From: Armatimonadetes bacterium Uphvl-Ar2
GTDB lineage: Bacteria > Armatimonadota > Fimbriimonadia > Fimbriimonadales > Fimbriimonadaceae
DNA: 64,000 nt
Assembly: GCA_002162095.1 (NCBI GenBank)
Contig: CP021424.1
Span: 1,922,001 to 1,986,000, forward strand
Reading direction: 5' to 3'
Part shown: positions 2,683-9,714 of the stretch, piece after piece
How the letters are laid out: each line of letters begins with the position of its first letter
How positions within the stretch are numbered: position 1 is the first letter of the stretch
Notes under the pieces: generated by a model
The model's database searches: none
Told to the model about the DNA's origin: nothing
What the model saw: the letters and a program-made list of their open reading frames with translations, nothing else
Made by a program: the position numbers and the translations under genes

Positions 2683-3909
2683 GTGAACAAGCCGGCCGTG
2701 GGAGGATGGCGACTCGCCCTGTGGGGCGTGATCGTGCTTGCCGCGGCCTGGTTTCTTTATTCCGTCCGCGCGATTTTGCCGCCCTTCCTTTTGGGTTGGG
2801 TCATCGCCATTGTCTTGGAGCCAGCCGTGCGCTGGCTTCGGTTGCGCGGGATGCCGCGCATGGCCGCCGTGCTTTTGCTCACGGTGGTGTTTTTCGGCCT
2901 CGCGACGCTGGTGGTCGTCAAAGTCAGCCCCATTGTGGCCGGGCAGATTTCGTCCGTCCGCGACCAGCTCGTGCGCGTGACGCAGGGCCTCGCCGAAGGC
3001 GACCAGAAAGCCAACATCTACACCAATTGGAACCCGGCGGTGCGCGCCGCACCGGATGGGGCCAGCGCCATGGTGGATGACCTGTTGAGTCGTTACGGCG
3101 ACCAACTGACGCGGGCGGGCTTGCCCTCAAACCGACAAGCCATCGTCGAGCAGTACGTCGAGCCCCAGCGCGAGAACCTCGTCAAGGCTTTGCAGGGCTT
3201 TGTCAATGGCTTCTTCGGCATTGTGGCGGGGGCAGCGCAGAGCGTCTTGTTGCTCGCCATCACGCCCTTGATCGTCTTTTATCTGCTCAATGATATGGAC
3301 CGGATGGGCAAACGGGCGGCCACCTGGATACCCGTCAGTATCCGCAAAGAAACGCTCAGCCTCATTGGCGAAGTCAGCGGGGTGTTCCGGTCGTATTTGC
3401 GCGGCATCTCTCTGCTCGTGCTCATGTATTCGGCGGCGGCGGCGTTGCTCTTGGGCATCCTGGGCGTGCCGTTCTTCATCATCCTCGCGGCGCTGGCAGG
3501 CTTGCTCTATCTCATCCCGATGTTCGGGAGCCTCATCAGTACCGTGCTCATTTTTGTGGTGTGCCTGGTGAGCGGCCAGAGCGGACCGGCGTGGACGTCG
3601 TTCGGTTCGCCCATCATGTACGCGATCATCTGTACGGTGGCGTTCTCACTGCTGTCGAGCTTCGTGTTCGACCAGATCATCGTGCCGCAGGTCATCGGCG
3701 GCGCGGTGGAACTCCACCCCCTCTTCAGCATCTTCGTCATCACGGCGGCGGGCGCCCTGTTTGGGGTGCCGGGGATGCTGTTGGCCTTCCCCGTGGCGGG
3801 TTCGGCCAAGGTGATTTTGGATCGGTTGCTCCGCGTGGTCAGTCAGCCCCCACCGGCTTTGGCGGGCTTGCCAAGTGTGCCGATGCGGCACCGAGTTTCG
3901 GAAGACTAA
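2683..3909 (+). CDS. AI-2E family transporter (PerM/YdiK-like)
   Basis: A polytopic inner-membrane protein of 408 residues with about eight predicted helices: two pairs at the N-terminus, a soluble segment (about residues 85-165), then the conserved C-terminal helical block with LITPLIVFYLLND and PMFGSLIST. This is the AI-2E exporter/PerM family, whose members have been linked to signal or ion efflux; the substrate here is unknown. The start is a GTG; no other start fits better. It converges on the kinase-like gene and their ends overlap by four bases. Confidence 0.88.
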   Translation: MNKPAVGGWRLALWGVIVLAAAWFLYSVRAILPPFLLGWVIAIVLEPAVRWLRLRGMPRMAAVLLLTVVFFGLATLVVVKVSPIVAGQISSVRDQLVRVTQGLAEGDQKANIYTNWNPAVRAAPDGASAMVDDLLSRYGDQLTRAGLPSNRQAIVEQYVEPQRENLVKALQGFVNGFFGIVAGAAQSVLLLAITPLIVFYLLNDMDRMGKRAATWIPVSIRKETLSLIGEVSGVFRSYLRGISLLVLMYSAAAALLLGILGVPFFIILAALAGLLYLIPMFGSLISTVLIFVVCLVSGQSGPAWTSFGSPIMYAIICTVAFSLLSSFVFDQIIVPQVIGGAVELHPLFSIFVITAAGALFGVPGMLLAFPVAGSAKVILDRLLRVVSQPPPALAGLPSVPMRHRVSED

Positions 3910-5825
3910 TCCGCCTTGCGATGGCGATGGCGGGAGAATCGCCGCGCCAGGTCGCTGGCCGTGAGCTCCAGCTTGCGCCGGCCCGAAGGCAGCACTAAGT
4001 TCCACCGGATGGGCGTAACTTCAAACTCCCAATCGGCCTCGCTTTCTCGCCACATCATAAACAGGCGCTCGCCATCAAAATCCATGCCCTTAAGCTGGCT
4101 AACCAGCCCCATATGGCGGCGTAGCCATCCCCGGAACTGGATCCGGTCCGGCGTAATCCGCAGCATGCCACTCCGGCGCTCACCGTCCTTTACCCAAACG
4201 GCGCGGCCGCTCCAGCACAAGGCATTGGCCTCGCCATCCAGCCCCAATTCACCTTGGCCGTAGGCAAGCCGCAGGGCATCGTTGAAGAGTTCTTCGAGGT
4301 CGTCTTCCTCTTCGGCCGTGGGGAGATCCCGGGCGATACGGTGCCACGTGCCTAGGTCGTGGATTTGCCCGAGATGCTCGGCAATGGGGTTGGATTCGGC
4401 CCGCACGAGCTTCAGCCCTTGCGGAGTGGTGTCGAACTCCACGTCTCCGCTGCGGCACACCAAGCCGGGGTTGGCGGTGGTCTGCCCCACGGCCACCCAC
4501 GGCACAATATCCTTGCGCAGGGCACGCAGAGAGTAGCCACGCTCGTAGCCGCTACCCGTGAGCGGCGAAAGAAGGGTGAAGTAACCGTTCTCCGTGTGGC
4601 CCCGGGCATCACACTTGGGGCACATGCCGTTGCCCAGCCCCATCTCGCCGGTGGCGGCGAGTTCGGCCCATTCGCGCATTGTCCAGGCGTCCCCCTCAGG
4701 GCCGAGTTGCCAGGTCTTGTCGGCGGCAGGGGCGAGAGCCTGGTCGCAGTCTTCGCAGATGAAGAGTTCACGCTCGGTCAGGGTGCCCGCGTCCGGCTGG
4801 GCATGGCACCAGGCGCACTTCCATCCCGTTTTGGTCTTCATGAGCAATCCGCGATCACAATCTGGACAGGCGGGGCGGCGTTTGCTCGTGGTGCGGTGTC
4901 GCAGAACTCCGGTTTGGCAAGCCGGGCACATGCCTTCTCGGGCCTGGTACGCCGACCAGCGACCGGCCAGGCATACCGGGCAGGTGCGGGGTTTGGCGGG
5001 CTTGGGATCCTCCAGCACATCACCGCAGGCCGGACACTCGCGGCGGGCAAACTTGAGGTCTTGCAGCGCGACGCGAATCGCGTCCAGGTGTCGCCAGGTG
5101 GGGAGCGAAACGGGCACTGACTGCAACGCCCATGCGGAACGGGCTTGCATGGCGGTGGCGGGGCGCACCGCGGGGTCCAGGCTGCGCCAGGAGGAAAGTT
5201 CATCCGGGCCGGCGGGAGGATGGAGCTGATCCAGCAGGGATGCCAGGGCGTAGAGATCGCGGGCGGGCAGGTGCATCCGCCGCCGGTCATGGCCCTCGGG
5301 GGTCGGATCTATAGGATCGTCTTGGTCAAATCGGTCGGCCAGCCAGTTGCGGGCTACGCCCATTCCGCCCAGCCACGGACGCCCATCCTCATCCAAGAAG
5401 ACAGCCCGGGGCGTCACATTCCCGTGAATCCAGCCGTGTGCGTGCCACTGCTCAATGATGAGGAGGAGGCGCTGCGCCCACCGGTCCCGTTCAAGGGTGT
5501 CGAGTGTAACGGACGTTTCGTCGAGGCGCACGGCCCCGGGGATGGCGTCGGTCACCCACCACAGTTGGCCGCCTTCAAAGCCCACCCATTCGGCCCCCAG
5601 CCAGGGGATGCCCAGGCGCGGGGGCACGGCCAGCAGGGCGCGCCGCACCAGGTGGGCCAGCATGCGCCTCTCATCCGTTCCCAGGCCCTTGGTTGCGGTC
5701 TCAGCGAGGCACCACGCCCACTTCTCCGCCCCCGTGGCCACCTCATGCGCCAAGAAAACCGGGTGCACGGGGTCCGCCCATTTGAGTTCCCCCCGCAGGT
5801 AGCGGCCATCGGCCATGGGGGTCAT
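3906..5825 (-). CDS. Degenerate protein-kinase-like protein with tandem zinc ribbons
   Basis: Large cytoplasmic protein of about 639 residues. The N-terminal third has a kinase-like layout: a hinge-like VTDAIPGAVRLDE, then HGNVTPRAVFLDEDGRPWLG in the place of the HRDLKPxN catalytic loop and DFG. The catalytic Asp, the DFG Asp and the expected Lys are absent, so it is probably a pseudokinase. The middle has paired cysteine motifs (CPAC/CPVC, CPAC/CPDC, CAWC/CEDC, CPKC) between roughly 4600 and 5050, typical of zinc ribbons. The C-terminal part is unrecognised. Start codons at 5825 (ATG), 5816 (ATG) and 5855 (GTG) are all possible. It is divergent from the secreted-protein gene at 5889. Its function is inferred only as binding or scaffolding. 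Confidence 0.7.
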   Translation of the reverse strand: MTPMADGRYLRGELKWADPVHPVFLAHEVATGAEKWAWCLAETATKGLGTDERRMLAHLVRRALLAVPPRLGIPWLGAEWVGFEGGQLWWVTDAIPGAVRLDETSVTLDTLERDRWAQRLLLIIEQWHAHGWIHGNVTPRAVFLDEDGRPWLGGMGVARNWLADRFDQDDPIDPTPEGHDRRRMHLPARDLYALASLLDQLHPPAGPDELSSWRSLDPAVRPATAMQARSAWALQSVPVSLPTWRHLDAIRVALQDLKFARRECPACGDVLEDPKPAKPRTCPVCLAGRWSAYQAREGMCPACQTGVLRHRTTSKRRPACPDCDRGLLMKTKTGWKCAWCHAQPDAGTLTERELFICEDCDQALAPAADKTWQLGPEGDAWTMREWAELAATGEMGLGNGMCPKCDARGHTENGYFTLLSPLTGSGYERGYSLRALRKDIVPWVAVGQTTANPGLVCRSGDVEFDTTPQGLKLVRAESNPIAEHLGQIHDLGTWHRIARDLPTAEEEDDLEELFNDALRLAYGQGELGLDGEANALCWSGRAVWVKDGERRSGMLRITPDRIQFRGWLRRHMGLVSQLKGMDFDGERLFMMWRESEADWEFEVTPIRWNLVLPSGRRKLELTASDLARRFSRHRHRKAD

Positions 5826-5888
5826 CGGGGCCAGAAGGGAAGGCGGCTGACTCACAGACGTTCTTAGTAACAAGATACACTTTTCTCT

Positions 5889-9714
<3,826 letters not shown>

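Follow-up and report, generated by a model that had tools for sequence, protein, structure and literature searches.

A predicted pseudokinase with a zinc-ribbon array and a probably PH-like tail, from an Armatimonadota family with repeated losses of catalytic residues

Here, we describe a gene whose predicted product joins a kinase-like domain, stripped of its catalytic residues, to a zinc-ribbon array and a probably PH-like tail. We consider it about an even chance (probability roughly 0.5) that this protein is a cytosolic multi-domain signalling scaffold or adapter that derives from an active Ser/Thr kinase and works independently of kinase activity in its genus. Judged by sequence, it is a member of a family with this same architecture in Armatimonadota: in an alignment of 43 members, similarity extends along all three parts, with 24-31% identity outside sister species and with invariant positions in the zinc ribbons and the core.

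Results

The gene and its product

The gene was analysed within a stretch of 64,000 nucleotides (the window), taken from a genome that consists of one contig of 2,633,441 bases. The features discussed below are the following.

3906..5825, minus strand: complete gene for a 639-aa protein (pseudokinase, zinc-ribbon array, PH-like tail)
5091..5825, minus strand: kinase-like domain, residues 1-245, without Gly-rich loop, beta3 Lys, HRD Asp, catalytic Asn and DFG Asp
5409..5426, minus strand: HGNVTP, residues 134-139, at the catalytic-loop position
5358..5366, minus strand: GMG, residues 154-156, at the DFG position by the family alignment
4746..5036, minus strand: three zinc-ribbon-like pairs, six CxxC, residues 264-360
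4500..4685, minus strand: module A (EW...GN-CxxC...TLL), residues 381-442
4320..4499, minus strand: module B, related to A, residues 443-502, with Gly in place of the second CxxC Cys (460)
3915..4238, minus strand: PH/GRAM-like domain, residues ~530-637, a weak assignment below cut-offs
2683..3909, plus strand: AI-2E family transporter gene, tail-to-tail with the pseudokinase gene, with a 4-base overlap
5889..6872, plus strand: divergent neighbour encoding a secreted-looking 327-aa protein, family unassigned (context only)

The gene is real. Positions 3906-5825, where an initial annotation of the sequence had located it, hold one long open frame of 639 codons on the minus strand, counted from an ATG at 5825, and its GC content at the three codon positions (0.70/0.52/0.77) is consistent with a coding sequence; a GTG at 5855, in the same frame, is a second candidate start, and the choice between the two is uncertain. 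A scan of the genome_contigs collection returned one relative only, a 95% identical gene in DEIB01000054.1 ('Chthonomonas sp. UBA2785'), which NCBI places in Armatimonadota. The protein is most likely cytosolic, since hydropathy predicts no membrane helix: none of the 43 members has a 19-residue peak of 1.8 or more, and the maximum in the window protein is 0.99.

A kinase fold without catalytic residues

Profile comparisons identify the N-terminal ~245 residues as a Hanks-type kinase homologue. The initial annotation had made its reading depend on this homology, which withstood the check: a profile built from 40 relatives, with the window's genus left out, scores the kinase domain of the window protein at 46 bits, against 1.8 for the best of 900 shuffles, and those of its two congeners at 53 and 41 bits. 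The profile of the 43-member family matches PpkA across the entire kinase domain (3e-59), and Pfam Pkinase is matched by 40/43 members. When the window protein was searched alone, no kinase family was matched in Pfam; its top match in PDB was a non-kinase, TRIM69 (E 0.008), with kinases at 0.013 and worse, and NCBIfam and PADLOC gave weak matches to the kinase part only. Two identities that such matches might suggest were set aside. Lanthionine synthetase rests on an NCBIfam LanL match that is limited to the kinase part and scores 18.6 bits where the cut-off is 650, and a defence system on PADLOC matches (MkoA, PD-T4-6, mad6) to a kinase domain that is common to many systems; no defence neighbourhood was seen among the genes scanned around the pseudokinase.

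All four catalytic columns are altered in the window protein, with the beta3 Lys replaced by Ala, the HRD Asp by Asn, the catalytic-loop Asn by Ala and the DFG Asp by Gly, in keeping with the earlier judgement that phosphotransfer is unlikely. The catalytic loop does read HGNVTP (after I133), as first annotated, where the family consensus is HRDxKP and a 95% identical neighbouring species has HGDVTP. The DFG position is indeed degenerate; its initial placement at LGG, however, was one to two residues early relative to G154-M155-G156. The sister species G001 keeps HGD and is missing the other three catalytic residues; the second congener, G002, is missing all four. The activation segment of the window protein is shortened as well. 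As aligned, then, the domain is without the residues needed for phosphotransfer, and ATP binding is presumably absent.

Zinc ribbons and the C-terminal region

The window protein contains seven complete CxxC motifs (at residues 264, 282, 300, 320, 337, 357 and 402), whereas 5000 shuffles of the same protein averaged 0.43 and never exceeded 4. An eighth, at 457/460, lacks its second Cys, which is Gly in the window protein and Cys in 36/43 members. The three to four paired motifs of the initial annotation are thus borne out, and the array would amount to four ribbons' worth of CxxC, the fourth being incomplete. Ribbons 1 and 2 are alike (hhalign 95.8%), and of the 16 Cys positions of the family the window protein retains 15, all but 460. 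By alignment, these zinc-ribbon-type motifs are real and conserved across the family, and the array probably binds zinc.

Could the array be a zinc or redox sensor, reshaped by metal or thiol state, with the kinase-like domain relaying the change by binding? Conservation in the family is highest in the Cys array, where 10/16 positions are invariant in 43/43 members, and a gene for a VKOR-thioredoxin protein lies ~2.9 kb from the pseudokinase gene. However, the CxxC pattern is equally expected for structural zinc sites, VKOR is near the kinase gene in only 22/48 loci and stays where the kinase gene is absent, and the window's genus has lost the ligand Cys460 while retaining the gene. We therefore regard a sensor as rather unlikely. 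It is less probable still that the degenerate fold binds ATP in an altered manner and catalyses a different transfer. There are bacterial precedents for such a change, namely SelO (AMP) and SidJ (glutamate), as described in a 2025 review (PMC12599244), and the neighbouring species has HGD at the HRD position; against this, all four residues that handle nucleotide and metal are changed in the window protein, K, N and the DFG Asp in both congeners, and the Gly-rich loop is missing from the window domain.

After the last complete CxxC, about 234 residues remain, close to the ~230 of the initial annotation. That annotation called them unrecognised, which holds only in part, as we distinguish a pair of related modules with CxxC motifs and, after them, a domain that is probably PH-like. 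Modules A and B are matched by hhalign at 95.8%, with 10% identity; a third hhalign comparison reached 63.7%. The last ~110 residues are likely PH-like: bPH_6 matches 7/38 members, with 6.7e-5 at best and 0.057 in the window protein (13.9 bits, below the cut-off of 22), while bPH_4, bPH_10 and a syntrophin PH model each have one match in family tails. GRAM reaches 19.3 bits in L085, against a cut-off of 23.6 (0.001 for the fragment), and bPH_3 reaches 0.11 in L084; the tail of L083 gives no PH-type signal. No C-terminal match, whether to bPH_6 or to GRAM, passes the curated cut-offs of the PH families, profile searches of PDB with the C-terminal parts found no PH chain and nothing credible (best E 0.43-0.65), and a bPH_3 search of 151 genomes gave 0 matches. 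Structure prediction, suggested with the initial annotation, was of little help: AlphaFold2 reached a mean pLDDT of 31.5 for the window protein, with one relative as input beside it, and of 38.5 for the 121-residue C-terminal part, values too low for use.

Distribution of the family and losses of catalytic residues

The P0001 search found relatives in 51/113 genomes of the window's class, a few of which are ordinary kinases. A profile of the C-terminal part, which avoids other kinases, places the family in at least 48/113 class genomes, 42 of them in the window's own taxonomic family (f1) and 6 in another (f2), and in at least 3/178 genomes from the rest of the phylum; scoring was limited to 9 candidates per genome, which makes both 48 and 3 lower bounds. 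Further pieces, cut at contig ends, are present in two class genomes (G077 and G012). The three relatives outside the class are proteins of 886-960 aa, with intact kinases, 9-12 CxxC and similar C-termini. Among open-licence papers, we found none on a kinase / zinc-ribbon / PH-like family of Armatimonadota.

From the 51 fetched loci, the 43-member alignment omits six incomplete members (L048, L074, L076, L077, L078, L079), two ordinary kinases (L080, L081) and one locus cut at a contig end (L082); the A3, A4 and A6 sub-alignments also lack L032 and L052, and A6 lacks L061, L063 and L070. All four catalytic residues are kept in 32 of the 43 full-length class members, and one or more are gone in 11. 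Most relatives thus look catalytically competent, and at the level of the family the initial annotation's phrase "rather than an enzyme" does not stand. Since 32/43 relatives keep all four residues, the family probably descends from an active kinase, of which the window's genus would be a derived branch.

Mapped by parsimony onto a maximum-likelihood tree of the part outside the kinase domain, the K/D/D triad, which 11 members have lost, changes at least five times; the outgroup consists of the three relatives from outside the class, counted as intact on the basis of their motifs. These losses fall in the window's genus (clade support 99/97, with a long window branch), in the g28 clade (L052, L059, L061), in L053, in L036, and in L060 with L062/L063. 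The figure of five refers to losses of residues and not to proteins proven inactive, because loss of the Lys alone (L036) may leave activity. The f2 members diverge first on this tree, a branching order more easily reconciled with vertical descent and loss than with recent transfer. Over half of the class does without the family, so its function must be dispensable for many relatives.

Genomic neighbourhood

The start of the pseudokinase gene lies 63 bases from the divergent gene for the secreted-looking protein. A Pfam scan of six nearby window proteins identified a transporter, a VKOR/thioredoxin protein and MnmA, the other three having no family above cut-off. Across 48 loci, AI-2E is near the kinase gene in 26 and MnmA in 23. 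The secreted-looking protein itself has no Pfam family and no PDB match at E up to 10; it shows conserved motifs around GGxxG and PGL. In f2, four loci (L065, L075, L076, L078) have a different divergent neighbour of ~430-450 aa, whose N-terminus is alike in all four.

In 16 sampled kinase-less genomes, tblastn of the fetched stretch found a family member in 0/16. The AI-2E and secreted-protein genes lie side by side there in 11/16, in the same direction and 21-133 bases apart; in the remaining five, the gap is 1.8 kb in one and the AI-2E gene was not found in that stretch in four. The kinase gene is, therefore, a presence/absence gene between two conserved genes, and the empty site corresponds to 3906-5889 of the window. 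Since these neighbours persist without it, they are not obligate partners, and the AI-2E transporter, MnmA, VKOR and the divergent secreted protein were set aside as such. The survey for a conserved partner that had been proposed with the initial annotation was, in this respect, mostly negative.

We could also imagine that the pseudokinase works with the divergent secreted protein, for instance through control of its expression or export. The two genes are divergent and adjacent (gap <200 bases) in 25/48 loci, and are also found with the AI-2E/MnmA block elsewhere. This adjacency is explained by shared ancestry of gene order, and three observations make the link improbable: the secreted protein is present in 97/113 class genomes, in one copy nearly throughout, against at least 48/113 for the kinase family; its gene and the AI-2E gene adjoin one another in most of the sampled genomes that lack the kinase; and in many genomes both genes are present yet far apart.

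Selection on the kinase-like domain

Between the window gene and that of G001, dN/dS is 0.076 overall, and it stays within 0.03-0.10 in every segment: 0.054 in the ribbons, 0.030 in the core, 0.049 in the tail and 0.096 in residues 1-245 (0.059, 0.041 and 0.070 in three parts of that domain). Neighbouring genes give 0 to 0.03, apart from VKOR at 0.105, for which the ORF used in the other genome differed in length. The dead kinase domain thus evolves somewhat faster than the rest of the protein, yet is clearly constrained, and a value of 0.096 indicates that it is maintained. On these ratios we reject a pseudogene. It is very improbable that the gene is decaying and heading for loss, as its absence from over half of the class, its clean empty sites and the long window branch might hint, since purifying selection extends to the dead domain and no frameshift or stop is found across the three congeners. 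As a separate observation, dS in the same comparison is 1.8 at residues 161-245 (5091-5345), against 0.11-0.44 across the ribbons, the core and the C-terminal part; such a range along one gene implies that recombination or saturation touches single segments, and recombination in the sister species is a possible source of the high value.

Other kinases of the genome

Pfam PF00069 has two matches in the window's genome, and only one of these (L089:1429-3114, plus strand) has intact HRD and DFG motifs. The same genome encodes a PASTA kinase (L090:481-2271, minus strand; G000:C1:708283-710070; Pfam PASTA 2.2e-26, Pkinase 2.7e-26) that is itself degenerate, reading VTVR, HGDLSARN and MGGFW. Relatives of this protein occur in 108/113 class genomes, a few being kinase-only matches, and among the best 30 loci, 30/30 have the beta3 Lys changed to Arg, HGD for HRD, and no DFG Asp, with Trp next. 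This class-wide PASTA pseudokinase may be a more striking finding than the zinc-ribbon pseudokinase. Finally, L087:2752-10350 (minus strand) encodes a tandem of three kinases that have CxxC pairs at the N-terminus; in two of them there is repeated sequence that resembles WD40.

Discussion

In the ancestral family, the zinc-ribbon array and the PH-like tail would most likely recruit or position a partner, and in the competent members the kinase domain would act on the partner so recruited. In the window's genus, where phosphotransfer appears to have been lost, the kinase fold could serve as a docking or allosteric module. Loss of phosphotransfer in a protein whose whole chain is under purifying selection suggests that it probably works by binding alone. 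Zinc binding, the PH fold, the recruitment of a partner, the lack of ATP binding and the scaffold function are all inferences, as is the sensor or assembly hub suggested in the initial annotation.

It is tempting to go further and speculate that kinase activity is the optional part of this family, the ancestral and selected function residing in the zinc-ribbon/PH-like body, and the kinase fold, inactivated on at least five occasions, having been retained for binding. We hold this only tentatively and think it somewhat doubtful. If true, the family would be a natural experiment for the passage from kinase to scaffold, with active and dead orthologues at the same gene position. Bacterial pseudokinases are little studied, and here members that look active and members that look dead belong to one orthologous family in one class, catalytic residues have been lost independently at least five times, and selection still acts on a dead domain. 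Swapping active and dead orthologues could show what a kinase that does not phosphorylate does.

Among known proteins, the Hanks-type Ser/Thr kinases PpkA and PknB provide the first comparison, as the family kinase domain aligns with PpkA over its full length. The window's genus differs from these kinases in having lost the catalytic residues, and the family in carrying two additions, the zinc ribbons and the PH-like tail, and in showing no membrane helix by hydropathy. Actinobacterial kinase-zinc ribbon fusions (GAP1-N2), compared by description, likewise combine a kinase, a zinc ribbon and a beta-rich domain; they are described as catalytically active and as adjoining PP2C and vWA genes, neither of which was found beside the window pseudokinase in the Pfam scan of six nearby proteins. 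The C-terminal domain recalls bacterial PH-like domains (bPH_6, GRAM) through weak matches in several members, all below curated cut-offs. Zinc ribbons, PH domains and kinase domains occur, as reported, in other bacterial proteins with SHOCT domains (PMC3581485).

The 2025 review lists seven bacterial pseudokinase families, ActPs1-3, GLW, CP1, DYD and DLHK, which likewise have a bacterial kinase fold with one to three catalytic motifs lost (PMC12599244). As described there, they differ from the family presented here in phyla and partner domains, and the words 'zinc' and 'Armatimonad' are absent from its main text. The window protein has degraded motifs, as in ActPs3, but not the C-terminal hydrophobic segment that many ActPs3 members have (its hydropathy maximum is given above); it departs from GLW, where GLW replaces HRD, Leu/Trp occupies the beta3 Lys column and a membrane segment is present, in having HGN for HRD, Ala at the Lys column and no membrane segment; and it lacks the COG3899 ATPase domain of CP1 in a Pfam scan. 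CP1 nevertheless resembles the family in being membrane-free and a mixture of active and inactive members, according to the review (PMC12599244). MviN of M. tuberculosis, an ActPs3 protein, is unlike the window protein in that it is a membrane protein, has no zinc ribbons and recruits FhaA via phosphorylation by PknB; its pseudokinase domain is nonetheless an example of a non-catalytic kinase fold used as a recruiting module (PMC12599244), the kind of role that we propose, with the confidence stated at the outset, for the window protein.
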